Positions 3,046-52,554 of a stretch of DNA of 64,000 bases are shown here, piece after piece. Source of the DNA: Leptolyngbya sp. BL0902 (GTDB lineage: Bacteria; Cyanobacteriota; Cyanobacteriia; Phormidesmidales; Phormidesmidaceae); the NCBI RefSeq assembly GCF_016403105.1, contig NZ_CP046155.1, forward strand, positions 3,067,906 through 3,131,905. Reading direction: 5' to 3'. Within the stretch, counting starts at the first letter, position 1. Each line of letters starts with the position of its first letter. A program made the position numbers and the translations under genes. The notes under the pieces were generated by a model, which was not told the origin of the DNA, searched no databases, and saw nothing but the letters and a program-made list of their open reading frames with translations.

Positions 3046-4458
3046 ATGAATCATGCAGAACGAGAGACAATTGACCTAGATTTAAGTTCCTTGGGGTCTT
3101 CGGTACGAGAATCAGGAGTCTTTGCAGCAGGAGCCTTCGCCATTTGTGTGGCTGTAGCTGCCTTTGCGACCACTCGCATCACGCCTCAGTATACCGCTGA
3201 CGCCAAACTACTCTTTACCAAGGTAGACCGAACCGCTGCCCTGACGGGGTTAGGGGGCGGAGAAACCGGACAGCTCCAATCGCTTTTGATCGACCAAACT
3301 CCCCTCAGCACAGAAATTGAAGTGCTGCGTTCGCGGCCTCTCCTTCAGGCCACCATTGAAGCTTTAGATCTAAGGGATGAAGAGGGTGATCCCCTCAGCG
3401 CCGATAATTTAAGTCAACGGCTAGACATCAGTATTATTGGCGGCACTGACGTACTATCCATTCTGTTTACCGATACCGATCCTGAAACTTCCGCTAACGT
3501 CGTTAATACCTTAATTAATCAGTATCGAGAACAATCTATTAATACTAATCGAGCTGAAACACGAGAAGCCAAAGAGTTTTTGATAGCGCAGCTTCCTCAA
3601 ACTGAAGCTGTGTTGCGTCAAGCTGAAGTAGATCTACAAAATTTCCTAGAGCAAAATCAAATCGGTGTATTAGAAGCCGAGGCTAGATCCCTCGTCACTA
3701 AAATCGAAACGATTTCTAATCAGATCGCTACCGTTCAGGCCAGCATGGAAGGAGCTGCCACAGAATCTAATACACTGCAAGGTCGCCTCAATTTAAACCC
3801 TCAAGATGCCTTGATTGTAGGAATACTGAGTCAAAACCCTGGTGTACAAGAAGCCATTGTCGCTCTGCAAGCTGTAGAGCGAGATCTTGCTACTCAACAG
3901 GCTCGGTTTAGCAACGATAGTCCCGTTGTTCGCCAGTTGCTCTCTCAACAGCAGTCTTTGCAAACTTTCCTTCAACAACAAATTCAACTTGCTGGAGGAG
4001 CACCCAATGCACCCAATGCACTTATCCAAGGCACTCCTAACCAACAGAATATTACTCAGGCTCTCATACAACGATACCTAGATACTGAGATTGAGTATAT
4101 TGGTCTGAGGCAACAACTCAGTGTCCTCCAGAATTATCAGGCTCAGTATCAATCTCGCCTCATCAGTGTTCCTTCTCTTAGTGCTGAACAGCGTGCCCTA
4201 GAACGTCAAGTGGCGGTTGCTGAAGAAACCTACAGCAACGTCCTATCTCGTCTCCAGGAGTTACAAGTGCGAGAAAATGAGACAACCTACAATACCCGCA
4301 TTGTTCAGCTTGCAACACCTCCAGAGGAGCCTGATTCTGGAATGAAGCTGAAGCTTTTAGCCTTCGGTGTTGTGGGTGGGGCGTTACTAGCGATTGCAAT
4401 TATTCTAGTGTCGGAAGCTTTGAAATTTAGTAAATCCTTCAATAAACGTTCAGCCTAG
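3046..4458 (+). CDS. Wzz/GumC-type polysaccharide chain-length and export protein
   Basis: The ATG at 3046 is chosen over the upstream frame start at 2971 because the protein then opens with a short cytoplasmic segment before TM1 (about residues 24-43), as in Wzz proteins. The 470 residues hold a periplasmic Wzz domain, a long coiled-coil stretch (about 170-400) and a second TM (about 435-457). A tyrosine-kinase domain (BY-kinase, Walker A) is absent, so this is the membrane half only. It heads an AT-richer run of polysaccharide genes and probably sets chain length or links the inner-membrane polymerase to an outer-membrane exporter. Confidence 0.85.
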   Translation: MNHAERETIDLDLSSLGSSVRESGVFAAGAFAICVAVAAFATTRITPQYTADAKLLFTKVDRTAALTGLGGGETGQLQSLLIDQTPLSTEIEVLRSRPLLQATIEALDLRDEEGDPLSADNLSQRLDISIIGGTDVLSILFTDTDPETSANVVNTLINQYREQSINTNRAETREAKEFLIAQLPQTEAVLRQAEVDLQNFLEQNQIGVLEAEARSLVTKIETISNQIATVQASMEGAATESNTLQGRLNLNPQDALIVGILSQNPGVQEAIVALQAVERDLATQQARFSNDSPVVRQLLSQQQSLQTFLQQQIQLAGGAPNAPNALIQGTPNQQNITQALIQRYLDTEIEYIGLRQQLSVLQNYQAQYQSRLISVPSLSAEQRALERQVAVAEETYSNVLSRLQELQVRENETTYNTRIVQLATPPEEPDSGMKLKLLAFGVVGGALLAIAIILVSEALKFSKSFNKRSA

Positions 4459-4578
4459 GATAAAGAGCTGACCATTCATGGAAATCGTTAAAGTCGCCAG
4501 ATTCCGATAAGCCTCAAAATTTCAGGCAATCATATCTAGCAATACGGCCAGAGTCTACCTCCAAACCGAATAATAACA

Positions 4579-5913
4579 ATGGCAAAAATTAAAATTAACG
4601 TAATGAATACGCTTGACAAGTTCGAGCGAGTATTTAGCGTTATTTCCCTCATCCTCTACATGAATGCGGTTGTTCCTTTATTTATTATTCAAGGAGCCAG
4701 CGAAGGGGATGGGGTTGATCTTTTTGCCTTCAATTACACTCCATTAAACTTGCTTTTTATCACTAACTACCTAATAACGCTGACTTTGCTTATTTTGCGG
4801 TGGAACAAAACGCTAGTCTTTGCTATTAATAACGTTTTGTTCATCACCTTAATCTTAATGGCACCCCTGTCCTATGTCTGGTCAGCCCTGCCTGATCGAA
4901 CTATGTCCGCTTCTATCGGCATCATGGGCAGCACCATGTTTGGATTCTATGTCGCAACCAGATTTAGTTTCCGCGAACAAGTTCGGCTTCTGGCCTGGGC
5001 TTTTGGCGTAACTATTGCCCTTAGCTTTGTTTTTATTGTCGCACTGCCCAAATATGGAATTATGGCTGCCGTACACGCCGGATCGCTGAGGGGAGTATGG
5101 ACGCACAAAAACGGCATGGGAAAATTTATGGTGTTAAGCAATGCCGTATTCCTCATGCTCCTACAATCCAATGCTAAGCCTAAGTGGTATCTGTGGATAG
5201 GTTTATTGTCGAGTCTCATGTTAACTGTGGGATCTAACTCTACTAATGCTCTGGTTAATTCGATCTTGGCTATCACCATCATTCTTTTTCTCAATCAGGT
5301 ATTTAAACTAGAGAATGATAAATTTTCAATCGTAGCTGTTCTTCTCGTTATGTTTCTTTCTGGCCTAGTCATTACCTTCAATGATATCGCTGGAGCATTA
5401 CTAGGCTTAGTAGGAAAAGATCCCACCTTAACTGGACGTACAGACATTTGGGCTTTGGTCATAGAAAAGATCCAGCAGCGGCCCATTCTGGGTTATGGAT
5501 TTGCTGGATTTTGGCAAGGTCTTCGTGGCGAGTCTGCCTCTATTATCAGGGCATTAAGATGGCCCGTTCCTAACTCTCACAACGGCTATCTAGACTTTAT
5601 CCTTCAGCTTGGGTTAGCTGGCTTTTCACTGTTCTTAGTCATCTACTGGTCTACCTTAGTCAGAGTTTATCTCCTGCTGCGCCAATGCTTCTGTCTAGAC
5701 TATCTCTGGCCGCTCATTGTTCTGATATATCTCATCCAGATCAATATTGCTGAGCCATCTCTTCTCGCGCAGAACGACTTTTTCTGGATTCTTTTTACAA
5801 CTATTGTTGTTTCTGCATCTGCAGAGTTCAAGAGTGTTTTTCAGCGAAGAAGTATTACTCAGGTATATCAGAGCAAAGATATTTCCAAAAAAGCAGCTAC
5901 CATTTCCTCTTGA
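4579..5913 (+). CDS. O-antigen ligase / Wzy-type polymerase family membrane protein
   Basis: This 444-residue polytopic membrane protein has roughly ten or more hydrophobic segments. The conserved Wzy_C-like loop reads GKDPTLTGRTDIW, followed by RPILGYGFAGFW and then PVPNSHNGYLDFILQLG. This G-R-x2-[IL]-W ... [GS]-x-G ... HNxxL pattern is characteristic of the family (PF04932), whose members join or polymerise lipid-linked glycans at the periplasmic face. With a flippase and a Wzz protein beside it, a Wzy polymerase role fits better than lipid A ligation, but sequence alone does not decide. Confidence 0.85.
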   Translation: MAKIKINVMNTLDKFERVFSVISLILYMNAVVPLFIIQGASEGDGVDLFAFNYTPLNLLFITNYLITLTLLILRWNKTLVFAINNVLFITLILMAPLSYVWSALPDRTMSASIGIMGSTMFGFYVATRFSFREQVRLLAWAFGVTIALSFVFIVALPKYGIMAAVHAGSLRGVWTHKNGMGKFMVLSNAVFLMLLQSNAKPKWYLWIGLLSSLMLTVGSNSTNALVNSILAITIILFLNQVFKLENDKFSIVAVLLVMFLSGLVITFNDIAGALLGLVGKDPTLTGRTDIWALVIEKIQQRPILGYGFAGFWQGLRGESASIIRALRWPVPNSHNGYLDFILQLGLAGFSLFLVIYWSTLVRVYLLLRQCFCLDYLWPLIVLIYLIQINIAEPSLLAQNDFFWILFTTIVVSASAEFKSVFQRRSITQVYQSKDISKKAATISS

Positions 5914-5961
5914 TTTCGCGAACCCCCAGCTTTCCTAGAGAAACATCATGAGCCCTATCCT

Positions 5962-7902
5962 ATGAACCATTTGACCAGCAAGATAGCAATCAAGGGCAAC
6001 CTAAAGGGTCTTCTTCGCTGGACAAAGTGGTTTTTGATTGCTCTATGTGCTGGCCTTCTCGCGTTTACCCTTACCGTTAGCTGTAGGGCGACATCAGCAA
6101 CTAATGGGATTCAGGAAAACTCAATTCCACCTCGATATATCCTAGTCGATCAGTTTGGTTACCGCCCCAACGACCGTAAGATGGCCGTTATTTCGCAGCC
6201 ATGCTTTCTTCACACCGATCTAGAAGAGGCAGAGCGGTTAACTGATGCCTACAGCCTAATTGAGATCAGCGGGAATACAGAAAAGATAGTGTATGAAGCT
6301 ATTCCAACGCTGTGGAACAATGGGGAAATTCACAACCAATCTGGTGATTGTGCTGCCTGGTTTGACTTTTCCGAAACTCAGGACGTTGGCCGCTATATCA
6401 TCCAAAATAATCGCACTAAGGAAACCTCGTGGCCCTTTTACATTAGACCCGACATTTATCGAGAAATCTTAGTTGCTGCTACACGCATGTTTTTCTATCA
6501 GCGTAGCGGCTTTCCCAAACATGCACCCTATGCAGATCCTCGTTGGACAGATGATGCCGCCTTCATTGGGCCAAGGCAGGATACGGAGGCTCGCTTTGTC
6601 GAAGACCGACAGAATACTGCCCTGACTAGGGACATGCAAGGGGGATGGTTTGATGCTGGAGATACAAATAAGTATGTCACCTTTGCATCAACAGCCGTCC
6701 ACCAATTACTCGATGCTTATCAACAAAATCCCACCCTATGGACTGATGATTTCAACATTCCTGAATCAGGAAATGGAATCCCTGATCTCCTGGACGAAGT
6801 CCGCTATGAGATAGAGTGGCTAAAGCGTATGCAGGCCGATGATGGCGGTGCATTTATCAAGATTGGGACAGTAGACTTTAGAACATTCGAGCGACCAAGC
6901 CTAGACCCACGACCACGCTTTTATGCTCCCCAATGTTCCTCTGCCACGATTGATATCGCCAGTATGTTTTCCCATGCAGCGCTGGTTTTTAAGTCGGTTC
7001 AACCTCTATCTGGAGATGTAGAGGATCTTCAAAATCGATCTATCAAAGCTTGGCACTGGTACCATAGTCACCCTCACCAAACGGATTGTGATACCCAAGT
7101 TGTTAAGTCAGGCGATGCCGATAGAACCCTTGAGCAGCAGGCTGACAGCGCCATTGCTGCTGCCATTTATCTATCGCGAATCACCTCTGATCCTAGCTAC
7201 GAAAACTATTTAACAGAAAACCTTCGACATTATTGCTTTTACTGCCATCAAACCTGGTATCCCTACAAGCCAATTTTAGGCGATGCCCTTCTTTATTATG
7301 TGCAGCAACCTGATGTTTCTCAAACCCTGAAGTCTCGTGTGATAAAGGCTCTTGAAAATCTCACTAGACATTCCAAAACCTATGGCCTACACCCTGAAGT
7401 CACTCCTTACCCAGCTCACATGCCAGATGATCAGTATCACTGGGGCAGTAATTTTGTTCAGGCGGTCTATGGGATTACTAATTTCGATGCCTATCGCATT
7501 CTAGAGCCTTCTACACTGCGTTCACAATATTATGATAGGGCTCTGGAGGCTATCCACTATTTCCATGGAGTTAACCCATTGGGCCTTGTTTACCTATCTA
7601 ATATGTATGCTTACGGCGCTAGTCACTCTGCCAATGAAATGTATCATGAGTGGTTTGGTCACGGTATTTACGATAATGCCCTTACTTCCGAAAGTGGCCC
7701 TGCCTCTGGCTATTTGACAGGCGGCCCTAACAAAAACTACACTGGCGATGCTCCTATCAACTTAGACTATCCCATGAGAGCCTATCTAGACAGCAATAAC
7801 AAACGCCATTCAATGTATATATGGGAACTGACTGAACCTGGAATCTACTATCAAAGCGCTTATCTAAAGCTCCTGTCTCGTTTTGTAAGTCTTGCCCAAT
7901 AA
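5962..7902 (+). CDS. Glycoside hydrolase family 9 (cellulase-like) with N-terminal Ig-like domain
   Basis: The 646-residue protein starts with a basic region and one hydrophobic segment (about 22-40) ending near Cys41, so it is exported or membrane-anchored; the lipobox is imperfect. Residues 58-160 look like a CelD_N immunoglobulin-like domain (ILVDQFGYRPNDRK). The GH9 catalytic module follows: GGWFDAGDTNKYV (D231 and D234, base and nucleophile-water positions), WGSNFVQAVYG, HYFHGVNPLGL and the C-terminal WELTEPGIYY with the probable acid Glu near 625. GH9 enzymes are inverting beta-1,4-glucanases. Its place inside a Wzy-type cluster suggests trimming or release of the exported polymer. The true substrate is unknown. 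Confidence 0.88.
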   Translation: MNHLTSKIAIKGNLKGLLRWTKWFLIALCAGLLAFTLTVSCRATSATNGIQENSIPPRYILVDQFGYRPNDRKMAVISQPCFLHTDLEEAERLTDAYSLIEISGNTEKIVYEAIPTLWNNGEIHNQSGDCAAWFDFSETQDVGRYIIQNNRTKETSWPFYIRPDIYREILVAATRMFFYQRSGFPKHAPYADPRWTDDAAFIGPRQDTEARFVEDRQNTALTRDMQGGWFDAGDTNKYVTFASTAVHQLLDAYQQNPTLWTDDFNIPESGNGIPDLLDEVRYEIEWLKRMQADDGGAFIKIGTVDFRTFERPSLDPRPRFYAPQCSSATIDIASMFSHAALVFKSVQPLSGDVEDLQNRSIKAWHWYHSHPHQTDCDTQVVKSGDADRTLEQQADSAIAAAIYLSRITSDPSYENYLTENLRHYCFYCHQTWYPYKPILGDALLYYVQQPDVSQTLKSRVIKALENLTRHSKTYGLHPEVTPYPAHMPDDQYHWGSNFVQAVYGITNFDAYRILEPSTLRSQYYDRALEAIHYFHGVNPLGLVYLSNMYAYGASHSANEMYHEWFGHGIYDNALTSESGPASGYLTGGPNKNYTGDAPINLDYPMRAYLDSNNKRHSMYIWELTEPGIYYQSAYLKLLSRFVSLAQ

Positions 7903-8162
7903 ACCTTTTTTTGATATTCGACTATTCGACAACGAGTTGCAAGGGCAAAATACAGCGATGCTTTTCCTGGTGAGGTGCGCTTCAAGTTCTGAAGGTCATG
8001 TATGACAAGGATATCGAGTTTTGCGCTGTACCTCAGGTGATCCTAAAGCGCTGTATCCTCTAGATCAACTGATTAAAAATTCCGAGTAATTAAGAATCAT
8101 GCTTTGAGAAGCCGCAATCTTTGCCTGATCTAAACCCAACATCATATCTGTTAATCGCGACT

Positions 8163-9056
8163 ATGGCTACTAGCCTTGGCTTTATTTTAGTTACCCACAA
8201 TCAACCCAATCAACTGCGACGCCTTGTGGATACAATCAACATTATGTTTGATTATCCCAGAATCGTCTGCCATCATAACTTCTCAATCACGCCTCTCAAT
8301 CAGGAAAGCTTTCCTAAAAATGTGAAATTTGTCATGCCCCATGTCAAAACCAAGTGGGGAAAGTTTTCTACGATAGAAGCTGAAATGAGGGCACTGCGCC
8401 TACTGTACCAATGCCCTGATCCGCCTGATTGGTTTACCATCTTGAGCGGTTCAGATTACCCGATTAAACCTGCTGCTAAAATCATTCAAGATCTATCGTC
8501 ATCGCCCTACGATGCCTTTATCCACCATGAGATAGTTCAGTACAACCGCCTAGAAAGCCCATGGCAACGACTAGGCTATCAACGTTACTGCACGGTCAAA
8601 ACATGGGTGCCAGCCATTGAAAAAAATGGACGGCTAAAGAAAAAATTTATTACGCTCTTGGAAAAACCATCTTTGACAAAATTTTTTACCCCCTTTTCAG
8701 ATTCTTTTCCTTGCTTTGTGGGCGATCATTTTTTCTGCGGCAATCATCGAGTCGCAAAATATTTACTTGATCAGCATGAAACTGCTGTGTCGCTACAAAA
8801 ATACTATCAAAAACATACTATATTCCCTACCGAATCTTATTACCAAACTCTTCTTTGCAATGCTCGAGGCTTCAATTTATGTAACAACAACATGCGCTAT
8901 GTTGACTGGAGCTCTGAAAATGCCCATCCTAAAACTCTTGGGATGGAAGATCTCCCGTCATTGCTATCGTCATCGGCACACTTCGCTAGAAAATTTGATT
9001 CATGTAAAGATATAGAAATTCTTAATGAGTTGGACAAACAAATCCGAGAATACTGA
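8163..9056 (+). CDS. Core-2/I-branching-type glycosyltransferase (GT14-like)
   Basis: The ATG at 8163 is preferred to a TTG at 8121 because the protein then starts at the first strand of the fold (LGFILVTHNQPNQLRRLVD), giving 297 residues. Typical PF02485 elements are seen in order: FTILSGSDYPIKP around 90, FVGDHFFCG around 180, FPTESYYQTLL around 225, and a YVDWS...HPKTL segment near the C-terminus. Bacterial members transfer a sugar, probably from a UDP donor, to make branches or extensions in surface glycans. Donor and acceptor are unknown. It lies between the GH9 gene and the flippase. Confidence 0.85.
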   Translation: MATSLGFILVTHNQPNQLRRLVDTINIMFDYPRIVCHHNFSITPLNQESFPKNVKFVMPHVKTKWGKFSTIEAEMRALRLLYQCPDPPDWFTILSGSDYPIKPAAKIIQDLSSSPYDAFIHHEIVQYNRLESPWQRLGYQRYCTVKTWVPAIEKNGRLKKKFITLLEKPSLTKFFTPFSDSFPCFVGDHFFCGNHRVAKYLLDQHETAVSLQKYYQKHTIFPTESYYQTLLCNARGFNLCNNNMRYVDWSSENAHPKTLGMEDLPSLLSSSAHFARKFDSCKDIEILNELDKQIREY

Positions 9057-9128
9057 GATAAATTAACGTAACAGTTGCCCTTTCTTGGTCGCCCAAAATA
9101 CCATTCATGGGCCGCAATCTAAATCATT

Positions 9129-10418
9129 ATGAAGCAAGTGATTTCTAAAGTAAGATCAAAGATTAGAGATCTCACCCAAACTGCCTTCTTTAAGGACAGC
9201 TTTTGGATGTTGATCACTCGCGCTTTAAGCATGGTGATTCAAGTAGCCTACTTCATCATCCTGGCTCGATACCTTGGCTCTGAATACTACGGCATTTTTG
9301 AGGGAAGTAAAGCTATTTGGGCCATTATATTTCCCTTTGTTGGCATGGGTGCTAGTGATCTTTTAGTTCAAGATGTCTCTAGAGAAAATCGAGTTTTTTC
9401 CCAACGGTGGGGAGATGCGTTGTCCTTAGTTTTATTGTCTGCTGGAGTGGTTGCACTAGCTATCTTCCCAGTAGTAGCCTTCTTTTTCTCATCTGTGCCA
9501 CCTTTATTTATATTTTTGACTCTAGTTGCAGATCTGGTTGGCTTAAAGCTATGTGGTTTTTCTGAAAGAGCTTTTATCGCAAGTCATCGCATAAAGGAGG
9601 CTGCCCAGTACGGCATGATATATACGGTCTCAAAGTTGGTCGGGGTGATGTTTCTGCCGATCATACCAGGAGATGATCGGCTGATGATCTGGGGATTTGT
9701 CTATTGTTTAAGTTCTTTAGTGCCTGCCTTTATTCTTTTATACTTAGTGCATAGAAAAGTTGGAAAGCCTATTTTTCGATTTAATTTCTTAGACCTAAAT
9801 AAATTAAGTCAAGGTTTTTTCTTCTCCCTTTCGGAGTCAGCATCAAGCGTCAATGCCCAAATGGATAGGGCGATGCTGGTAGGGCTTTCCAGTCCGGTAG
9901 CGGCTGGTATCTACAGTGCTGGATATCGGTTCATTGATATGGGATACCTGCCCATTATTGCTGTGCAAGGTGCGAGTTATCCGCGCTTCTTCAAGGCGGG
10001 GGAAGGTGGTCTTCGCGGAACATTGACGCTGGCAAAGAAGCTTCTCTTGCCTGGAATCCTGTACGGATTAGCAACGATTATTATCTTAGTTCTGTTTTCT
10101 CCGTTCGTTTCTCAAATCTTGGGGCCTGAATTTGAACAATCCTCGCTAGTCTTGGTTTGGCTAGCACCTGTTCACCTGCTCTTTATCCTACAGTTTCTAG
10201 CGGCTGACTCTTTGACTGGGGCTGGATATCAAAGAGCCAGAAGCTTTATTCAAGTTAGCGCAGCTGTAATTAATATTTCCCTTAATTTCTATCTCATTCC
10301 AATCTATTCCTGGCAAGGGGCTATTTGGGCAACGTTATTCTCTGAGGTATTCAAGTCAGTTCTACTTTGGATGATCGTGTGGTTCTCCTATCAAAAGGAA
10401 CGGCAAGCTCAGACCTAG
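9129..10418 (+). CDS. Polysaccharide flippase (Wzx / MOP superfamily)
   Basis: A 429-residue protein with about twelve hydrophobic segments. The first helices read FWMLITRALSMVIQVAYFIILARYLGSEYYGIFEGS, the usual N-terminus of oligosaccharide flippases (PF01943/PF13440), with an R...YLG motif in TM1-loop. Such proteins flip undecaprenyl-linked repeat units across the plasma membrane. Together with the Wzz-like and Wzy-like proteins it completes the core of a Wzx/Wzy pathway; the initiating phosphoglycosyltransferase and the outer-membrane exporter are not in the window. Confidence 0.88.
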   Translation: MKQVISKVRSKIRDLTQTAFFKDSFWMLITRALSMVIQVAYFIILARYLGSEYYGIFEGSKAIWAIIFPFVGMGASDLLVQDVSRENRVFSQRWGDALSLVLLSAGVVALAIFPVVAFFFSSVPPLFIFLTLVADLVGLKLCGFSERAFIASHRIKEAAQYGMIYTVSKLVGVMFLPIIPGDDRLMIWGFVYCLSSLVPAFILLYLVHRKVGKPIFRFNFLDLNKLSQGFFFSLSESASSVNAQMDRAMLVGLSSPVAAGIYSAGYRFIDMGYLPIIAVQGASYPRFFKAGEGGLRGTLTLAKKLLLPGILYGLATIIILVLFSPFVSQILGPEFEQSSLVLVWLAPVHLLFILQFLAADSLTGAGYQRARSFIQVSAAVINISLNFYLIPIYSWQGAIWATLFSEVFKSVLLWMIVWFSYQKERQAQT

Positions 10419-10462
10419 AAAGCAAGATAAGCCTGGCCCCTAACTCTGAGCTTCACCTGAGT

Positions 10463-11488
10463 CTAGAAACTAAATCGGTCTAAAACTTGCCCCAGTTGCC
10501 TGCCAGAGGCTGAAAACGAAAAATGCTCTAGAGCATAGGCCCGAGCATTATGGCTGATACGTCTGCGTAGATCGTGATCATGCCACAGCGTATCGATGGC
10601 TTCAGTCATGCTGTCCACACAGTTTGGCTTGACAAGCCATCCCGTTTCTCCATGAATAACATAATCATCGGCCCCGTAGAGATTAGTTAAAATGAGAGGC
10701 CGACCCATCATCATGGCATCAATGATGGTTACTTGACCCGCAGCGGTAACGTCTTTTTTAGGAAGCAATGGAAGTACACTGAGACGTGCCTGCTGGGCAA
10801 GTCGGAGGCAATCGTCGCGACTGATGCCAAAGGGCAATTCAACCTGTTCTGGAACTGCAACGCCCTGAACGGCTGATTCGCTAGTGGCCACAACAGTTTT
10901 TAGGTTTAATCTCTTGACGGCTTCAAAGAAAGTTGGAAAATCCCGATGAGCAGATCCAAGCGATGTGATAAAGGGGTTCTCAGTGTCTTCATGGTATTCA
11001 ATGGGAATTTCTGAGCCAGTGTAGGGGACAAACTCAAAACGACTTTTGGGCAAGCCTAGCCATTGGCTATAGATATTCACCTCGCGACGAGTATGGACGA
11101 TAAAATAATTGACATCTTTTAAGCTAAACTGAGCCAATTTGCGACGGAGCCCAGTGCTGCAAGTTCCCACATTGAAGATCCACGCGATTACAGGTTTTTT
11201 ACGAAATCGTAGTGCTTGTTGGAGCCCTATGGCGGCAGGCAATTGAGGATAGGCAGTTATGATGCCCTCTGTCGAGGCGTTCAAGGCGCTAGAGGCGTGT
11301 CTCATGTAGACTGACCATTCCCGTACTGAGGTGTACTTTGACTTGCGTGTGTGCCATTTTGGCAGTGGCTCTGGGCGGGGAATAATAGTTAATTCATGAT
11401 TATTTCCAGGCACATAGGGAACCAGCCATGGATCGGTAGTAGTTATATTTTCAACATCGATGAAGGGTGCAGCTACAGACCATTTCAT
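10463..11488 (-). CDS. GT-B-fold glycosyltransferase (GT4-like)
   Basis: Encoded opposite to the rest of the locus and convergent with the flippase, 341 residues. The C-terminal half has the GT4-type donor-site pattern: ARLSVLPLLPKKDVTAAGQVTIIDAMMMGRPLILTN, then GADDYVIHGETGWLVKPN and a closing helix with ISHNARAYALEHFS. The E of the usual E-x7-E motif is replaced: the region reads TIIDAM, so an Asp stands where Glu is common. The N-terminal acceptor half is divergent. Likely adds a sugar to the polymer or a lipid-linked unit; specificity is unknown. Confidence 0.78.
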   Translation of the reverse strand: MKWSVAAPFIDVENITTTDPWLVPYVPGNNHELTIIPRPEPLPKWHTRKSKYTSVREWSVYMRHASSALNASTEGIITAYPQLPAAIGLQQALRFRKKPVIAWIFNVGTCSTGLRRKLAQFSLKDVNYFIVHTRREVNIYSQWLGLPKSRFEFVPYTGSEIPIEYHEDTENPFITSLGSAHRDFPTFFEAVKRLNLKTVVATSESAVQGVAVPEQVELPFGISRDDCLRLAQQARLSVLPLLPKKDVTAAGQVTIIDAMMMGRPLILTNLYGADDYVIHGETGWLVKPNCVDSMTEAIDTLWHDHDLRRRISHNARAYALEHFSFSASGRQLGQVLDRFSF

Positions 11489-12295
11489 ATGAACTCCTCA
11501 CATCTAAGCGCAGGATTTAGGATGAATTTTAACTCAAGTGGCGATAAAAGGGTGAGCTTCTGCGCCATGGCAGTTTTTGTTGAAGCTGGACGCATTCATG
11601 AAGCCATACTTCCCTTGCCTTACAGAGACTCGCTTAATTGTAAATGATCCTACTGCTATAAATCCCTTTAAATATCTATAAAATGTCTTTATAAACTTAT
11701 ATCAAATGAGGACAATAAAAATTTGAGTTGAGCCAAAAGTGACATTAATTTAGCATCAAGGTAAGTAAAGGTCATGGGGCAGCGGCCCTTGCTAGCAAGG
11801 TTTTCAGCCAAATATGATTTAATGGGCACAGGCTATCACCATGGAAAAGGCAGCTATACTGTTAACCCTCAACTCATTAGCCCTCTACTGAAGAAGATTG
11901 AACTTTAGTTACAGAGAACAGCAATTTGAGGACGAACTCTGCATGGCTTAGCGTCCAATGCAGCACACAGATCTGAGATAAAGTTGCCCAGCATGGGATA
12001 CTCTTGGCTACTTTAAGGGCTTATGGCCATGGCATTGACGGATATCATAGCCCATCAGCCTAGAGCATCCTAGCTAATATCCATGATAGTTGTGACCATC
12101 CATAGTTGTGACCATCCATAGTTGTGACCATCCATAAAAGTAGCGTTTGCCACTATGGGATGGGATATGGGAATAGAACTCCCACCTTATATCATGCGGT
12201 CAATTACCTCTATCTATCTTTAATAAACCTAGGGGCTACAAGATGATCTATCGTTGAGGCATCCCCATTATGTCTTTTCGTTTTTTCATTTTCCC
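11489..12295. other. AT-rich intergenic region with a tandem repeat
   Basis: About 800 bp between the divergent glycosyltransferase and aroK. It is AT-richer than the genome around it and marks the right border of the polysaccharide locus. No convincing gene was seen. It holds the three-copy 16-bp repeat at 12086-12133. Confidence 0.5.
12086..12133 (+). repeat. Three perfect copies of a 16-bp tandem repeat
   Basis: The unit ATAGTTGTGACCATCC occurs three times without mismatch at 12086-12101, 12102-12117 and 12118-12133, followed by a partial ATA. It lies about 160 bp before the aroK start. There are no spacers, so it is not a CRISPR array. Such arrays vary by slippage. Confidence 0.9.
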
Positions 12296-44042: not shown

Positions 44043-46519
44043 TAGAATCGCTCCCCAATGCCAAAGTGTAGGCGGCCCTCGCCTTCATTGCTGAAGCCGT
44101 AGTCAATCCGCAGGGGGCCAAGGGGGGTTTGCACCCGTGCACCCAGACCATAGCCAAAGCCGCTGCCCGGTTTGCCCCGCGACGGCCCTGGTGCCCCCGG
44201 CACAGCATTGCCGCTGCCTAGGGATGACCCAGCATCAAAGAACAATGCCCCACCCAGGAAAGAGAACAGCGGGAAGCGGTACTCCGCTGTGAACTGGGCA
44301 TAGCTGCGACCACTGCCCACTTCGCCTTCTTCATAGCCGCGAATGGAGTTGGTGCCTCCCAGGGCAAAGGCTTCGTAGGGGGGCACATCCCCCACAATGG
44401 TGCCCAGTTGGATGTTGAAGGCGAGAGCTTGGGGGCCGTCGCTGAAGTTGATCCACCGCACGGGGAGATACTGGCTGTAGCTGCCCCGCAGGCGGTTCAT
44501 GAAAATACTGCCCTGACCCAGGGGAATTGACTGTTCAGAATTGAGGCGCAGTACGCTACCGCTGGTGGGGTTAAAGACGTCATTGCGGCGATCTAGGGTG
44601 GCCGATACCGGAACCGTCCACAGCAGATCCGTCCCCGTACCGCTGAGGGTGAGGGGGTTTCCCGCCGCATCCACCGGGCTGATGGTGCCATCGGCATCGC
44701 GGGCCGAGATATTTTGAGCCGTGGTGCCCACCGCGACGACCCAGCCATTGTTTAACGGACGACTGAACGTGACGCCGCCGCCCAGTCGCCGAATCCGCAC
44801 GCGGTCGCCGTTCGGGAGGTCGATAGGGTTGGGGCCACCGTCAAAGTTTAGGTTGATGGCACGACGGGCAAAGGCATTGGCGGTATAGGAGGTGCGGAAG
44901 GGATCCCCGGCAATCCAGGGATCGGTGAAGGATACGTCAAAGAGGAGATCCCGCGTACTGACCTGGGCCTCCGCCGAGAGCTTTTGGTTGTTGCCGCCAA
45001 AGTTGTCCTGGCGATAGCTGACCGTACCAAAAATATCTCCAGTGAAGTTAAAGCCCAGACCCGCCGCCACCGATCCCGTGCTGCGTTCGGTAACGTTGAC
45101 AATTAACTTCACCTGGCGGGGGTCGTTTGCTGCGGGTTCTAGCCCAGGCCGCACATCTTCAAAGATCTGTAGCCCAAACACCCGCTGGAAGTCCCGCTCG
45201 ATCTGAGCCTGGTTGAATACATCCCCTGGCTGGGTCTGAAATTCGCGGGTGATGATGTGGTCGTGGGTGCGGCCCCGCAGGGGGTTGCCTTCCTCGTCCA
45301 CGCTCTCCCCTTGGTCGTTGAAGAACCGCACTTCAATGGTTTCTACCACGCCCTCGGCCACTTCTAGGGTCACAACTCCAGCTTCGGTGACGCGGGGAGC
45401 CGCCACCACCTGGGCCAGCACAAAACCATTGTCTTGGTACCACTGGTTCAGTTCCAGGATGCCGTCCTGGAAGTCGAGCAGGTTGATGATTTCACCCCGT
45501 TGATCGTCAAAAATCTCATCCACCACCGCCTGGGGCAACACCTGATTCCCCGTTACCCGTACTTCGGTCAAGACCGGGTTGGGCTGGGCCAAAAAGGTAA
45601 CGCGCACCCCTAGGTTGGTATCTTCGGGGCGGGCGTCCACATCGGCAAAAAAGCCCGTAGCAAAAATACTGTTGATGTCCCGCTGGAGTTGGGTGCGGGT
45701 GGTGGTGCGTCCGGCGCGGGTTTCGATCACGCTATAAACCAGATTGATCAAGTCTGGAGACAGATCACCATCGGGGGCCGTCACCAACACCTCCGACACC
45801 AGCACCCTGGGTTCTTCGGGTTCTGTGGCGGCCGGGGGCGGAGTTGCAGGAGTTGGGGGGGCTGCGGGTTCCGTGGCTTCCCCTGGTGCAGGGCTGGCCT
45901 CCTCCGGGCTGGGTTGAGGCACCCCCTGGGGTTGGTTGCGTCGCTCTACCGCGCCATCCAAAATGCGCTGGGCATCGTCGGGGCTAATCTCACGCGGGCC
46001 AGTTTGGCTGAGGGCAGTGCCTTCCGAAACAGGTGCCCCCAACCCCTGCAAGCTAGGGCTTTGGCTCAGGTCTAGGGTGGGCTGGGGCGGCTCGGCCATC
46101 CACTCCACCACTGCACTGGGCCGATACTCATCGACCACCGCCTGCAAATCTTCGGGCACGGTGCTGACCGGAATCAAGGTTGTGACCTCCGGGAGACCGA
46201 TGGGCAGGGTTTGATCCCCAGATGCCGATGCAGTCGGCAAGGTCTCCATCGGGCCAGACTCTTCCGGCAACCCAGCCTCGTCAGCGCTTGGGGTCGCCGC
46301 TAGGGGGTCTGCCCCCGCAGAAGCCGAGTTCTGCGGGGGTGGGGTCGGCACCGCAGGACGCAGGGCGTCTGCCGATAGGGCAGCGGGGGGCAGATCCTGG
46401 AGCGTACTTGTTGCCTCAGTGGCCTCCGTCAGCGTCGGATCGGCCTGCGCCGCCGTTGGGGACAGCCCTACCAGCCCAGCAGCCGTCAGAAGCACTAACC
46501 ATTTAGGAGATACCTGCAT
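44042..46519 (-). CDS. bamA: Outer-membrane assembly protein of the BamA/Omp85 family
   Basis: The ATG at 46519 begins with [26 protein letters not shown], a clear signal peptide (two or three near-upstream starts are possible); about 825 residues. A Pro/Ser/Glu-rich disordered stretch (about 30-235) comes before three POTRA domains (about 240-490; for example [22 protein letters not shown]). The 16-stranded barrel follows with the conserved loop motif [12 protein letters not shown] and ends in the Phe signal (GIGERF). It inserts beta-barrel proteins into the outer membrane. It is the first gene of the lipid A operon. Confidence 0.93.
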
Positions 46520-46645
46520 CCACACACCTATGAACGACATCCACACACCACGCGGCCTAATCCGTTACTGGGCCTAGGGCACCCTACATTAGCCCTGAAC
46601 CAAGCCGCCCCCAGGGTCGGACAAATTCTACCGCATTGACGGATT

Positions 46646-47377
46646 TCAACGCTGATGGGACTGTGCCATTACACGCTCTAGCACACGCTGATAAGCCTGC
46701 TCGACCTGGCCCAGATCCTGGCGAAACCGATCCTTATCCATCACCCGCTGGGTTTCATCCTCCGTGGCTTGATCCCACAGACGACAGGTGTCGGGGCTGA
46801 TTTCATCCCCCAGCAGCACATTCTGCTGGCGATCTAGGCCAAACTCCAATTTGAAGTCCACTAGGGTGATGGCGCAACTGGCAAAGAACTCGGTCAGAAT
46901 TTGGTTGATGCGTTCAGCTTGACGGCGCAGCTCGGCGATCTGTTCCTCGGTGGCCACCTGCATAACTCGCATCCGGTCGGGCGTCAGCAGTGGATCCCCT
47001 AGGTTGTCGTCCTTATAATAAAACTCCACCAGCGGCGGATTGAGGATCTGGCCCAGGGGCAACCCCGTTTGGCGACACAGGCTCCCCGCCGCCACATTCC
47101 GCACCACCACCTCCAGGGGAATAATGGTCAGCGCCTTCACCCGCATCTCCCGCTCGCCCGTGGTTTCCAGCCAGTGGGTGGGCACCCCCGCCGCCTCTAG
47201 TCGCTGGAAGAGATAGGTGGAAATAGCGCAGTTAATCTTGCCCTTATCGACGATTTGACCCCGCTTTTGGGCATTGAATGCCGTGGCATCGTCTTTAAAG
47301 TAGGTCAGCAGCACCGCCGGATCATCGGTGGTGTAGATGATTTTGGCTTTGCCTTCGTAGAGTTTTTTGCCAGCCAT
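46646..47377 (-). CDS. purC: SAICAR synthetase
   Basis: PurC joins aspartate to CAIR with ATP in purine synthesis. The 243-residue protein has KKLYEGKAKIIYTTDDPAVLLTYFKDDATAFN at the start, the PLEVVVRNVAAGSL signature and LVDFKLEFG with LLGDEISPDTCRLWD near the end. Length and motifs are normal. It ends upstream of bamA on the same strand. Confidence 0.97.
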   Translation of the reverse strand: MAGKKLYEGKAKIIYTTDDPAVLLTYFKDDATAFNAQKRGQIVDKGKINCAISTYLFQRLEAAGVPTHWLETTGEREMRVKALTIIPLEVVVRNVAAGSLCRQTGLPLGQILNPPLVEFYYKDDNLGDPLLTPDRMRVMQVATEEQIAELRRQAERINQILTEFFASCAITLVDFKLEFGLDRQQNVLLGDEISPDTCRLWDQATEDETQRVMDKDRFRQDLGQVEQAYQRVLERVMAQSHQR

Positions 47378-47564
47378 GGTGCAAGAGACATAGAGGGGCG
47401 TCCCTATATTAGCGGTTTATTGGGCGCTGTTTTTTGTGGTTTCGCGCCCATTATCTTCCAGCCATTCCGCTGCATTCATATTTTGAACCAGCTTAGGCAT
47501 TCCCTCGGTCTTAGCACTGAGCCCCTAACGAACTCATCTAAAACCTAGCTCAAGGATGCAGCCT

Positions 47565-48017
47565 TCAACGATGCAGCGTTTTTAACAATTCCCTAGGTCG
47601 TGCCAATACGACATCAGGATAACGGTCGCGGTGATGAACAAACATATAGTGCTCATACTGATACCAGTGCATTTCACCCTTTTCTTTGTTGCAGGGATAG
47701 CAAATCACCCAGAAGTTTCTAAAATCTAGCGACAACCAGGGATATTGAGATCTGGGCAACTTGTGATCGATGCTACGAACTTTGAATTGGCTAAAGTAGT
47801 CACCACAAACAGGGCACTGCTGATCAGAGTTTTCCCACACCCACTGACGACTTTCCTCTGTGGTGCCACAGTCATGATCGCCGTTGACATAGCGCCATCG
47901 GTCAAATTCATGATATTTCTCTAAATCCTGCTCTGTCAGGCGATGGTAGCGATAGCCACCCACCTTGTCGGCCAGCTTAAATAGCTCTTCTAGGGAATAA
48001 TCCTTTTGAAAGTCCAT
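47565..48017 (-). CDS. HNH-family nuclease-like protein
   Basis: A 150-residue protein. Residues 68-110 form an HNH zinc-finger nuclease core: CPVC (68-71), then IDHKLPRSQYP with the D84-H85 metal-ion pair, FRNFWVICYPCNKEKG with N101, C106, C109 and N110. The aromatic, charged C-terminal tail (YQYEHYMFVHHRDRYPDVV) is unusual. The N-terminal SLEELFKLADKVG motif (8-20) is also found in the 142-residue neighbour. Base composition is AT-richer than around. It is probably a nuclease of a defence or mobile set, or a nickase; the target is unknown. Confidence 0.8.
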   Translation of the reverse strand: MDFQKDYSLEELFKLADKVGGYRYHRLTEQDLEKYHEFDRWRYVNGDHDCGTTEESRQWVWENSDQQCPVCGDYFSQFKVRSIDHKLPRSQYPWLSLDFRNFWVICYPCNKEKGEMHWYQYEHYMFVHHRDRYPDVVLARPRELLKTLHR

Positions 48018-48075
48018 AGGAATCAGTTAAGGGAATAAGTAGAATGGCTAAATTAACATTAATGTTGGCTCTGGG

Positions 48076-48133
48076 TTTCGACTATGCTCAACCCTCTGGC
48101 TACTTGGCGGGTGGGCGTTGAGCGAAGTCGAAA
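48076..48133. repeat. REP-like inverted repeat
   Basis: TTTCGACTATGCTCAAC (48076-48092) and GTTGAGCGAAGTCGAAA (48117-48133) pair over 17 positions with two mismatches around a 24-nt loop. The arm is of the type common as dispersed palindromic repeats in cyanobacteria and other bacteria. It lies in the gap between the HNH gene and the 142-residue gene. Confidence 0.8.
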
Positions 48134-48206
48134 TGCATCTTACAAACAATTGTGACCATGGACTTAAAACTCAGTTCAAATATTAGGCGATAAGCATTGA
48201 GTGGTT

Positions 48207-48635
48207 TTATCGCTTTCGTTTCTTAGACTTGATGACATTCGATGAGCGCGACTGGCGAGGACGAAAGTCAATCATCTCAGGTTCTTCATCTGGAAAGAAC
48301 TGATCGATCTTCTGGGCGATACTTTCCATGGTTTCACTCAGCGTTTGGTGAAACCCATTGATCTCTTCTGAGGTCTGATATCGACTACCAATTCTATCGG
48401 CCTCTAAAAATAAATCTTCTAGGGATACATCGTCTTCTTGATAGGTTGCCAAAAAGGCATTGATTTTGCGATGAAGCTGGATGACATTCTCCCAGCCCAC
48501 ATTTTTATAATGCTTTTGCCTTAGCCAATCTTGATCGATTTTAGACAACAGCTTTCTCCGCTGGGTATTCGAGCTTTGCAGCTCTCGATATCCCATGCCA
48601 TCAAACAAGCGCTTCTTCGCTGATTTATTTGCCAT
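48207..48635 (-). CDS. Unknown 142-residue protein of the HNH cassette
   Basis: A mostly helical protein with basic ends (MANKSAKKRLF at the start; RQSRSSNVIKSKKRKR at the end). The central segment SLEDLFLEADRIGSRYQ (71-87) resembles SLEELFKLADKVGG of the HNH protein: about nine of fifteen positions are identical. No domain is recognised. It begins 4 nt after the coiled-coil gene and is surely co-translated with it. The lysine-rich tail may bind nucleic acid. Confidence 0.7.
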   Translation of the reverse strand: MANKSAKKRLFDGMGYRELQSSNTQRRKLLSKIDQDWLRQKHYKNVGWENVIQLHRKINAFLATYQEDDVSLEDLFLEADRIGSRYQTSEEINGFHQTLSETMESIAQKIDQFFPDEEPEMIDFRPRQSRSSNVIKSKKRKR

Positions 48636-48639
48636 TATG

Positions 48640-49224
48640 CTATCCTAATGTCCATCTCAAGACGCGAATCATGGCCTTGCGTAGCTCGCTGTCTTCATAG
48701 CGCAATAGCTCGTCAATGTCGCGGGCCAAGCGTAGCCGAATTTGGTCAAGGATATTTTTGAGAGCCTTGTTGTCCTTTTGTAGGCGCTCATTGGCGTCTA
48801 TCAGTTCATCATTGCGGGTTGTCAAGGTTTGAACCTTTGATGCTAAGGCTTGATTCTGCTGATTGAGCGCTTCAATTTTGCGTTGAAGTTCACTCTCTTC
48901 CTGAGCTAGTTCCTCTTTGTAATGGGCCAAATTCTGATTGCGTTCTTCCTGCTTGGCCACCGCTGCTTCCAGGCGCTGACAGTCTTGGGTGAGGCGTTCT
49001 AGCCGCTTCTCAGCCTGACTGCGCCGTTGACCGAGGGCACGGTTATTGTTGGATAGCTCGTTATTTTTTTGAATGAACGCTGCGACTAGCCCCCTAGCCG
49101 CAGGTCTATCCCTCAGAAGCGACAATAGCTGTTCGCAGTCCTCTGGGCTGAGGGCTTGGCTCACGTTTTTGTTAATGCCATAGCGATCTTTGAGGAGGGC
49201 TTGTAGGTCAGATTTCGATGGCAT
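48640..49224 (-). CDS. Coiled-coil protein, 194 residues
   Basis: After a short helical domain (about 1-48, with SPEDCEQLLSLLRDRPAARGLV) comes one continuous coiled coil (about 50-165), with heptad-rich QEERNQNLAHYKEELAQEES. A short basic end follows (LRKAMIRVLRWTLG). No signal peptide or TM is seen. It is first in the three-gene set with the 142-residue protein and the HNH nuclease, and is likely the structural or oligomerising member. Family not recognised. Confidence 0.7.
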   Translation of the reverse strand: MPSKSDLQALLKDRYGINKNVSQALSPEDCEQLLSLLRDRPAARGLVAAFIQKNNELSNNNRALGQRRSQAEKRLERLTQDCQRLEAAVAKQEERNQNLAHYKEELAQEESELQRKIEALNQQNQALASKVQTLTTRNDELIDANERLQKDNKALKNILDQIRLRLARDIDELLRYEDSELRKAMIRVLRWTLG

Positions 49225-49345
49225 GGGTGGACAAACAGGCTGTGGGGCACGAGCATCTGAGATCAGTGTACCCAGACTGTTGCCCAGATCAGACCCACAG
49301 ATTTACGGCGATTGAGTTTTGTTTTGTGACGCCTCACCGATGGAT

Positions 49346-50686
49346 CTAAATCCCCAAAATTATACGGGCGATGTTGAGGTAAATCAGCACCCCCAGCACG
49401 TCTACGGCGGTGGTGATGAAGGGGGCGGACATCAGGGCGGGGTCAAATTTGAGGGATTTGAACAAAAAGGGCAGGGCCGATCCAGCGAAGGAGGCAATGA
49501 CGGAAATGGCGAACAGGCTGCTGCCCACCGCCAGGGCCACGCCCCAATCGCCCTGGAGTAGGTAGGCCCAGAGGGTGACGGCTAGCCCCAGCAACAGCCC
49601 CAGCAGGCTTCCGGCCAGGGTTTCTCGGCGGATGATGCGAACCATGGCGGAGGGTTGCAGGTCTTCGGTGTTGAGGCCGCGAATCACCACGGTGGAGGAC
49701 TGGGCACCGACGTTGCCCCCGGCGTCGATCAGCAGCGGGATAAACGCCGCCAGCACCACCACCTGGGTTAGCACCTCCTCCTGGCCTTTGATCACCGCAC
49801 TGGTGGCGGTGTTGGTGACCAGCAGCACCAGCAGCCACACCACCCGTCGCCGCACCACCGTCCACAGGTTGACCTGGAAATAGTCGTCCTTGGCGGGCTG
49901 CACCCCCCCAGCGGTGTAGATGTCTTCGGTCACTTCCGCCTCAATTACGTCCATCAGGTCATCCACGGTGACGATGCCCACCAGCCGCCGTTCGCTATCC
50001 ACCACGGGCAGGGCGATGAAGTCGTAGCGCTGGATCAGGCGGGCGGCTTCCTCCTGGTCGGTTTCGGTGTAGACGTAGATCACGTCTGGGTTCATGATCT
50101 CCCGCAGGGGTTGTTCCAATGGAGCCACCACCAAATCCCGCAGCGAGAACGCCCCCAACAAGCGGCGCGAGTCGTCGGTGACGTAGAGGGTGTAGATGGT
50201 TTCGGAACGGCGGGCCACCTGGCGAATGTGCTCGATGGCCTGCTGAGCCGTCCAGCCCTGCCGCAGGGTGACGAACTCCGAGGTCATGATTCGTCCGGCA
50301 CTGTCGGCGGGGTAGCCCAACAGCAGGGCGGTGGCCTCCCGTTCGGCGGGGCTGAGGGCGGGCAGCAGGCGGTTCACCACCTTGGCGGGCAGTTCCTCAA
50401 ACAGTTGCGCCCGGTCGTCGGGAGACATCCGGTCGATAATTTCCAGCACCTCCGGCTGCCGAAATTCCGCCAGCAGCGCTTCCTGTACCCGCCGAGGCAG
50501 GTGTTCATAGACCTCAATAGCCTCATCCTTGGGCAACAGCCGAAAGGCGACGGCCTGGTAGGTGTCGGGCAATTCGTCAATAATTTCCGCCACGTCGGCG
50601 GGCTGCATAGGGGCCAACTGGGCACGCACGGCCTCGTATTGGTTAGCCTCTAGCTGGGTTTGGATATCTTGGGTGGTGTCTAGCAT
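49346..50686 (-). CDS. mgtE: Magnesium transporter MgtE (copy 1)
   Basis: The ATG at 50686 (MLDTTQDIQTQLEANQYEAV) gives 446 residues; 26 in-frame upstream codons are unlike the family. The order is MgtE_N superhelix (PADVAEIIDELPDTYQAVAFRLLPK), tandem CBS pair (about 135-255; EFVTLRQGWTAQQAIEHIRQVAR) and a five-helix TM domain with the Mg-selectivity region (GGNVGAQSSTVVIRGL). In solved MgtE proteins the CBS-N module closes the pore at high Mg. A close paralogue lies upstream on the same strand. Confidence 0.93.
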   Translation of the reverse strand: MLDTTQDIQTQLEANQYEAVRAQLAPMQPADVAEIIDELPDTYQAVAFRLLPKDEAIEVYEHLPRRVQEALLAEFRQPEVLEIIDRMSPDDRAQLFEELPAKVVNRLLPALSPAEREATALLLGYPADSAGRIMTSEFVTLRQGWTAQQAIEHIRQVARRSETIYTLYVTDDSRRLLGAFSLRDLVVAPLEQPLREIMNPDVIYVYTETDQEEAARLIQRYDFIALPVVDSERRLVGIVTVDDLMDVIEAEVTEDIYTAGGVQPAKDDYFQVNLWTVVRRRVVWLLVLLVTNTATSAVIKGQEEVLTQVVVLAAFIPLLIDAGGNVGAQSSTVVIRGLNTEDLQPSAMVRIIRRETLAGSLLGLLLGLAVTLWAYLLQGDWGVALAVGSSLFAISVIASFAGSALPFLFKSLKFDPALMSAPFITTAVDVLGVLIYLNIARIILGI

Positions 50687-50783
50687 GGGGGATGGTTTTC
50701 TTTGGCGGTGGACAGCCCTTGATCTAGGACGATTTAACGAATAACAAATAAGGTTGAGCGACAATTTCTAATGATTCTCGTGT

Positions 50784-51002
50784 CTAGCTTTTCCCTCGTT
50801 CCCCAATCCCTGATTGACGTTTTGAAGGAGAGAAATAATTCTTTTCATCCGTTTTTATCTGAAGGTCAGATATACGACGCAGAGAGACAATAGTAAACTT
50901 CATATTCTGTTGAAAGTTCCTTTTTAGGGGTTGCCCAACGAGGTGGTACATTGCTTCGCGAATGCATCCTACGTATTGAAATAGGCGCTTTAAGCTGGTC
51001 AT
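50784..51002 (-). CDS. Possible small protein between the mgtE copies
   Basis: A 72-codon frame with ATG at 51002, 12 nt after the stop of mgtE copy 2. The product is basic and partly helical (MTSLKRLFQYVGCIREAMYH). No good Shine-Dalgarno is seen and no family is recognised. The DNA is AT-richer than both flanks, so it may be a spacer or relic rather than a gene. Confidence 0.3.
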   Translation of the reverse strand: MTSLKRLFQYVGCIREAMYHLVGQPLKRNFQQNMKFTIVSLRRISDLQIKTDEKNYFSPSKRQSGIGERGKS

Positions 51003-51014
51003 TTCATGACGGTT

Positions 51015-52361
51015 TTAGATGCCCAAAATCAGGCGGGCGATGTTGAGGTAAATCAGCACCCCCAGCACGTCTACGGCGGTGGTGATGAAGGGGGCGGACA
51101 TCAGGGCTGGGTCAAATTTGAGGGCTTTGAAGAGGAAGGGGAGGGCAGCTCCGGCGAAGGTAGCAATCAGGGAAATAGCGATCAAACTGAGGCCCACCGA
51201 GACCGCAACGCCCAGATCCCCCTCTAGGACAAAGGCCCAGAGGGTGACGGCACTGCCCAGCAGCAGGCCCAGCAACAGCCCCGCTAGGGTTTCGCGCCCG
51301 ACGATGTAGACCATATCCGAGGGTTGCACATCTTCGGTGTTGAGGCCGCGAATCACCACGGTGGAGGACTGGGCACCGACGTTGCCCCCGGCCCCAATCA
51401 GCAGCGGAATAAAGGCGGTGAGGATGACCACCTGCTGAAGCAAGTCTTCCTGGCCTTTGATCACCGCACTGGTGGCGGTATTCGTCACCAGCAGCACCAG
51501 CAGCCACACCACCCGCTTGCGGGCCACGGTCAGCAGGTTAGTCTCGAAATAGTCATCGCCGACGGATTGCACCCCCCCGGCGGTGTAGATGTCCTCGGTG
51601 ACTTCCGCCTCAATCACGTCCATCAGGTCATCCACCGTGACGATGCCCACTAGGCGCTGCTCTCGATCCACCACGGGCAGGGCCAAAAAGTCGTAGTGCT
51701 GGATCAGCAGGGCCGCTTCTTCCTGGTCGGTGTCGGTCTGCACATACACCACCTCCTGGGTCATGAGTTCTTCGACCCGTTGATCGGGCTGCGCCACCAC
51801 CAAATCCCGCAGGGACAGGGTGCCCAGCAAGCGACGGGAATTGTCGGTGACGTAGAGGGTGTAGATGGTTTCGGAACTGCGGGCCAAACGCCGGATGCGA
51901 TCCAGCGCTTGGGCAGCGGTGAGACTCCCCCGCAGGGTGACAAACTCGGAGGTCATGATCCGTCCGGCGCTTTCGTCCGGGTAGCCCAGCAGCAGGGCCG
52001 TAGCCGAGCGCTCCGCCGGACTCATATCCACCAACAGCCGCCGCACCACCTTGGCCGGAAGCTCATCAAACAACCGCGCCCGGTCATCCGGCGACATGCG
52101 ATCTACAATGTCCAACACCTCCGGGTGCCGAAACTCCGTCAGCAAATTTTGCTGTACTCGGCTGGGCAGATATTCGTAAACCTCAATCGCCTCATCCTTG
52201 GGCAACAGCCGAAAGGCCACCGCCTGAAAGGTATCAGGCAGTTCGTCAATCATCTCGGCCACATCGGCGGGCTGCATGGGAATCAGCATGGCCCTCACAT
52301 CGTCAAAACGCCCGCTTTCGAGCAACCCCTGTAGTGACGCCTGGGCTGTGTCTTGAACCAT
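51015..52361 (-). CDS. mgtE: Magnesium transporter MgtE (copy 2)
   Basis: The ATG at 52361 is favoured because GGAG lies 6 nt before it; a TTG six codons earlier (52379) is possible. The 448 residues repeat the copy-1 architecture: MgtE_N (PADVAEMIDELPDTFQAVAFRLLPK), CBS pair (about 135-255) and TM domain with GGNVGAQSSTVVIRGLNTEDVQPSDM. It has high identity to copy 1, and the last 74 nt of shared coding sequence are identical between 51034-51107 and 49365-49438. The duplication is therefore recent, or the ends are being homogenised. Confidence 0.93.
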   Translation of the reverse strand: MVQDTAQASLQGLLESGRFDDVRAMLIPMQPADVAEMIDELPDTFQAVAFRLLPKDEAIEVYEYLPSRVQQNLLTEFRHPEVLDIVDRMSPDDRARLFDELPAKVVRRLLVDMSPAERSATALLLGYPDESAGRIMTSEFVTLRGSLTAAQALDRIRRLARSSETIYTLYVTDNSRRLLGTLSLRDLVVAQPDQRVEELMTQEVVYVQTDTDQEEAALLIQHYDFLALPVVDREQRLVGIVTVDDLMDVIEAEVTEDIYTAGGVQSVGDDYFETNLLTVARKRVVWLLVLLVTNTATSAVIKGQEDLLQQVVILTAFIPLLIGAGGNVGAQSSTVVIRGLNTEDVQPSDMVYIVGRETLAGLLLGLLLGSAVTLWAFVLEGDLGVAVSVGLSLIAISLIATFAGAALPFLFKALKFDPALMSAPFITTAVDVLGVLIYLNIARLILGI

Positions 52362-52554
52362 AGCCATCTCCTGCCCCAACGATTGTTAAGATAGCCTACA
52401 TCGGTGCCCAAACCCCTTAACCTGCTGTAAACCTTAGCTCTGCCCGACTCCATTCTGGCCTCGTGTTCTCCGGTGAAACGGCCTAGGTGGGTTCCTCAAG
52501 CTCGTGGAGTGAGCCTAGGCGGGGGAGAGGGGGTTGAGGCCAACCAACGGCGAT

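Follow-up and report, generated by a model that had tools for sequence, protein, structure and literature searches.

Do three adjacent genes of Leptolyngbya sp. BL0902 form one functional unit, and what is the meaning of a short segment present in two of their products? The window (the whole stretch of DNA that was analysed, 64,000 nucleotides) carries on its minus strand the genes of a coiled-coil protein (CC), a middle protein (M) and an HNH nuclease (HNH), with the order and coordinates that the initial annotation gave for the three open reading frames.

The three genes of the window

The elements of the cassette are the following:

48640..49224, minus strand: CC, gene 1, coiled-coil protein of 194 aa; ORF, conserved in 20 loci
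48207..48635, minus strand: M, gene 2, middle protein of 142 aa; ORF
48378..48434, minus strand: M copy of the motif (SLEDLFLEADRIGSRY, approximately residues 68-86); aligned to the HNH N-terminus by hhalign at E=5.2e-6; motif-profile match at genome positions 3116277-3116336
48040..48166, no strand assigned: dispersed repeat of about 130 bp that separates M from HNH and has inverted GTTGAGCGAAGTCGAAA ends inside
47565..48017, minus strand: HNH nuclease, gene 3, 150 aa; ORF, PF01844 match
47940..48002, minus strand: HNH copy of the motif (SLEELFKLADKVGGYRY, approximately residues 6-26); motif-profile match E=5.3e-12 at genome positions 3115845-3115907

CC comprises an N-terminal helical segment, a coiled coil of about 120 aa and an invariant C-terminal segment ending in YEDSELRKAMIRVLRWTLG. 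M is formed by a basic helical core (residues 11-67), the motif helix (72-85), another helix (92-113) and a disordered basic tail. In the relative G002 (L048, 9127-9510) an in-frame TAG cuts the basic tail of M, giving 127 aa versus about 142; the rest of the gene is open.

The cassette is flanked by purC (46646-47377) and two mgtE genes (49346-50764 and 51015-52379). The gap between CC and M is 4 nt and the one between M and HNH is 189 nt, practically the size initially annotated (190). This second gap is not ancestral but an insertion of a genomic repeat, with inverted GTTGAGCGAAGTCGAAA copies at 48076-48092 and 48117-48133; the repeat was identified in 17 genomic places including this one, the best other copy being 97% identical. 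The spacing from M to HNH at other loci is mostly about 5-50 bp, or the genes overlap, hence the ancestral cassette was a tight operon. The two mgtE-like genes are in tandem; G002 has only one, directly adjoining its cassette and 95% identical to the second window copy.

The GC content of the cassette is 46.2% versus 56.2% for the window, in agreement with the AT-richness relative to the flanks that had been annotated, and 0.6% of equal-sized segments are as low in GC, leaving aside the low-GC stretch at 3-12 kb. That stretch (3000-12000, GC 41-47%) contains genes read as exopolysaccharide export, O-antigen ligase, flippase and glycosyltransferases, and was probably acquired.

Distribution, linkage and selection

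All three near-full-length genes were identified adjacent and in order in nine genomes out of 59 relatives, the window included. Ten further complete cassettes came from 386 searched genomes of the phylum, and another is located on plasmid pMB01 of Acaryochloris sp. 'Moss Beach'; together these are the 20 loci of clade A. A match to the M family was present in 18 of the 386 sampled genomes (about 5%). Incomplete cassettes were identified in G029, with CC and a shortened M but without HNH, and in G021, which keeps just a 78-aa HNH remnant. In G201 two M-like proteins, with neither CC nor HNH beside them, bear long C-terminal extensions of unrelated sequence (L132, 9077-9652; L133, 3838-4377).

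Protein distances were correlated for M-HNH (r=0.88), CC-M (0.55) and CC-HNH (0.59), with a Mantel p=0.0002 and r ranging from 0.55 to 0.94 over the tests. Co-occurrence with kept gene order, as the initial annotation suspected, was found in the 20 loci and the homologues are not scattered independently, supporting joint inheritance of the three genes as a unit of constant order. In the comparisons that allowed an estimate of dS, dN/dS was 0.03-0.18, indicating purifying selection on all three genes. The three genes of the window copy are intact, and the suggestion that this copy is a mobile-element relic is not supported; the relative G021 does retain no more than a remnant of HNH.

The segment shared by M and HNH

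Residues 8-20 of HNH (SLEELFKLADKVG) and 71-83 of M (SLEDLFLEADRIG) agree in 8 of their 13 residues. This likeness, already pointed out from the window alone, is beyond chance: the sole match between the family profiles (profile-profile comparison) joins HNH 3-22 with M 66-85 at E=5.2e-6, and its score of 40.0 compares with a maximum of 30.7 over 200 column shuffles, none of which reached it. The motif is present in both M and HNH at all 20 clade A cassettes. It is also specific to the cassette: the core patterns, searched as regular expressions, matched none of 1387 background ORFs (306,520 aa), and in 18 genomes the motif profile gave exactly two strong matches per genome (M and HNH, E<=2.4e-7) in the 12 of 12 with an intact cassette, one in the shortened M of G029 (E=3e-4) and no other below E=0.25.

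The spacing of the motif is L-x2-L-F-x2-A-x2-[IV]-G-x2-Y, with one residue more before Y in HNH; six positions (L, L, F, A, G and Y) are invariant within a plug of about 20 residues. The spaced hydrophobic positions are kept over 20 loci, which implies selection on the motif, and their heptad-like spacing fits a putative docking on a coiled coil. Within clade A the motifs of M and HNH from one locus matched each other no better than those from different loci (p=0.67). Beta-clamp binding sites are QLxLF-like, and such a role for the LxELF start of the motif was dropped because the glutamine is missing.

Insertion sites and mobility

The sites of the clade A cassettes vary: beside mgtE in G000 and G002, in a cobQ/permease gene interval shared by the close relatives G008, G015 and G024, by fur in G010 and G017, and many others, with several unrelated sites even within one genus. 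The HNH remnant of G021 is also located at the fur site; the fur-SDR synteny is found in about 20 genomes of the genus, with the cassette in two and a remnant in one. The purC gene was identified in 27 of 28 genomes, with a cassette beside it in the window only. The neighbours of most clade A copies are housekeeping genes, and defence genes are absent from their vicinity.

At fourfold-degenerate sites G000 and G002 differ in 70 of 120 positions of the cassette versus 126 of 409 in purC, fur and mgtE together. This higher divergence fits a possible exchange of the cassette, to which codon bias could contribute. The patchy presence, the different sites, the plasmid copies and the base composition support the acquisition first proposed from composition, and suggest a cassette mobile between cyanobacterial chromosomes and plasmids.

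Divergent subtypes

Clade B was found through weak matches and presents the same order (CC-M-HNH) with a divergent CC. The M proteins of clades A and B are related (E=2.7e-13 over 52 residues), as are the HNH cores (E=2.6e-12); the CC proteins are marginally similar, with an invariant SE[IL] C-terminal segment in both. The net charge of the M core is +5 to +16 in clade A and +3 to +9 in clade B. In clade B the sole match between the M and HNH profiles involves both C-termini (E=1.2e-4; 0 of 200 shuffles), with tails of the types LADEALxKYxxL and LADEALxRYxxL in M and HNH; examples are LADKALSKYQLL with LAREALNRYKNL and LAETTLNKYQLQ with LAQETLNRYPSQ. Each tail fits its own partner more closely (30.3) than the partners at other loci (25.2; permutation p=0.0002), a comparison confounded by common descent. 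A search of genome contigs with the M-B profile, of limited reach, gave 12 loci, all from cyanobacteria.

Clade C is a further divergent trio (L137, 9007-10295; L140, 9018-10281) whose HNH-like protein lacks the zinc cysteines. Subtype D has an unrelated middle protein with a possible N-terminal helix-turn-helix (DUF3173 match below the cut-off). Its M C-terminus resembles the HNH N-terminus, most clearly in L219 (KTDASLxALKxDxxEIKxxYD, 0 of 2000 shuffles), and the two segments are neighbours in the DNA. The profile of seven loci gave a weak M/HNH similarity (score 28.7, reached by 1 of 200 shuffles; 22.8 and 0 of 200 without L219), a weaker case of a shared segment than those of A and B. Neither L118 nor clade C gave a significant similarity between single sequences of HNH and M.

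The presence of a common segment on the nuclease and its neighbour, as initially annotated, is supported because it recurs, with another sequence and position, in two further subtypes. Homology between the segments of different subtypes could not be demonstrated; motif A compared with the clade B tails had its best local match on the tail in both B proteins, at non-significant values (P=0.3 and 0.07).

The surroundings of these subtypes were diverse. In L058/L145 a clade B trio lies within a CRISPR-cas operon of type I (ORFs read by eye); in L058 (3359-4825, Cyanothece sp. SIO2G6 MAG) the trio is flanked by a Uma2-like gene on one side and a cas4-cas1 fusion on the other. On the Euhalothece plasmid pEu2 a clade B copy directly follows hsdM, hsdS, hsdR and a SprT-like protease gene, and on Geminocystis pGM3709_01 another is near type I M/S, helicase and toxin-antitoxin genes; further copies are carried by a conjugative Acaryochloris plasmid and by a mobilizable plasmid. 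Subtype D adjoins repressor-like genes in prophage-like stretches in L220 and L233 (Gloeothece plasmid Cy782201), and the neighbours of L118 look by eye like an MNT-HEPN pair. A phage origin of the HNH proteins was rejected, the searches being all but empty: viral-contig scans with HNH-A, M-B and HNH-D gave no match, those with HNH-B three weak HNH matches only, and phage records had no match for M-B, M-D or CC-D.

Relation to known families and systems

HNH matched PF01844 at 22.5 bits (cut-off 21.4), and the nine aligned clade A sequences have invariant C68, C71, C106 and C109 (two CxxC pairs), D84-H85, N101 and N110. The protein is a PF01844 member and a zinc-type HNH nuclease with predicted activity. 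In Pfam, NCBIfam, PADLOC and PHROGs, CC had generic coiled-coil matches only and M belonged to no family; CC and M of clades B and C had none in Pfam or PADLOC, and subtype D none in Pfam or PHROGs. The AF2 model of M has a core (about 11-60) with pLDDT about 90 and the motif on a separate helix (72-85) with pLDDT about 58; the model of HNH was poor (pLDDT 55). Foldseek gave nothing at E<0.001 for the fold of M against PDB and BFVD, VIA-align a Z of at most 4.2, and no convincing solved structure was related by sequence.

The HNH domain matches PADLOC PDC-M01B (E=2.4e-11) and Septu PtuB (E=6.8e-8 over 63 residues), with coverage of the HNH core only. In contrast to Septu, the cassette lacks an adjacent PtuA ATPase and has two extra small genes, and the motif is absent from these profiles as matched. 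No ATPase common to the loci was found, the neighbours in the window being purC and mgtE, and filing under PtuB/Septu was dropped for lack of the ATPase. The zinc HNH proteins of the McrA and Endonuclease VII type (PF01844, PF02945) share with the cassette HNH the two CxxC pairs that surround a D-H...N...CN core; the cassette HNH differs in its docking-type segment at the N-terminus and in having obligatory partner genes. Type I restriction-modification or CRISPR-cas loci enclose some of the clade B copies; however, most copies are free-standing and the unit has no methylase, specificity, Cas or RNA component. As for a type I CRISPR HNH variant, the divergent L058 lies in a cas operon and the window and the other loci examined lie outside one. 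Cohesin-dockerin and coiled-coil docking peptides, where one peptide type is found on several proteins of a complex, offer a working analogy only. No published description of the cassette was found in the literature searched, subscription papers being mostly outside its reach.

Proposed role and alternative explanations

The reading that we tentatively prefer, and to which we give a substantial though not a predominant probability, is a mobile three-component HNH nuclease cassette with an anti-invader role, where the adaptor and the nuclease dock by a common plug. CC would act as an oligomeric coiled-coil scaffold and M as a basic adaptor, probably binding nucleic acid. As M and HNH carry the same amphipathic helix, they could fit into sockets of one kind, for which the CC oligomer is the most plausible site: the spacing of the segment is that of a coiled coil, and the third gene, always present, is CC. 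DNA recognition and cleavage would thereby be brought into one complex, which would most likely degrade foreign DNA (phage or plasmid) or trigger cell arrest upon invasion. Defence is the likeliest role of the cassette, judging from circumstantial neighbourhood and mobility; against it, most clade A copies have ordinary neighbours, the cassette has no motor, ATPase or obvious sensor, and no PADLOC family fits CC or M.

A direct pairing of the M and HNH helices, like with like, would make M an inhibitor or antitoxin and CC a sensor or separate scaffold in a module of toxin-antitoxin type. The motif is confined to these two proteins of the genome, each clade B M tail resembles that of its own HNH, and such modules typically consist of small overlapping genes carried on plasmids. 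CC, however, is always present and conserved and would be superfluous for a simple pair, the motif copies change end or position from one subtype to another, and no toxin-antitoxin family was matched; we regard this pairing as unlikely, if worth keeping in view. The shared segment could also have no part in docking and have arisen when one gene was partly duplicated into, or converted by, its neighbour. The adjacency of the M and HNH genes and the side-by-side segments of subtype D would suit such an origin, which is nevertheless very improbable given that the copies of A and B have other sequence between them and occupy different protein ends, and that the hydrophobic spacing conserved over 20 loci implies selection.

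The role of the cassette as a whole could instead be that of a host nuclease for DNA processing (repair, recombination or uptake), often lost and unconnected with defence. Purifying selection, the housekeeping surroundings of clade A and the retention of one site by G008, G015 and G024 are in its favour; we hold it improbable in view of the M family being in so few sampled genomes of the phylum (18/386), the several unrelated sites even in one genus, a fur site occupied in just 2 of about 20 syntenic genomes plus one remnant, and the plasmid and prophage-like copies. The least probable explanation is a selfish element, homing or mobile, which would owe its spread to the HNH gene, the other two helping to target or insert it. 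HNH genes are common in homing elements, and the scattered sites and AT-rich composition agree with one, but the unit has no intron, intein, recombinase or transposase, no Rfam match was found in 46000-51100, the unrelated sites have no common target and all three genes are under purifying selection.

Returning to the docking cassette, a wider form of it is possible, although we hold it with less confidence: a modular nuclease system of at least three subtypes (A, B and D), where the CC sockets would take an interchangeable DNA-recognition adaptor and HNH through the same peptide. The peptide would be subtype-specific and evolve in concert on both proteins, with no cross-talk, and two unrelated adaptor types would exist in cyanobacteria. 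The predicted plug, with about 20 residues and six invariant positions, makes the proposal directly testable. The literature searched contained little on cyanobacteria. If the proposal is true, these organisms would possess a three-part, plasmid-borne nuclease system as yet undescribed, which came to light through its architecture rather than homology, and the concerted change of the docking segment on two proteins would illustrate cleanly, in nature, how interaction specificity is maintained across subtypes.
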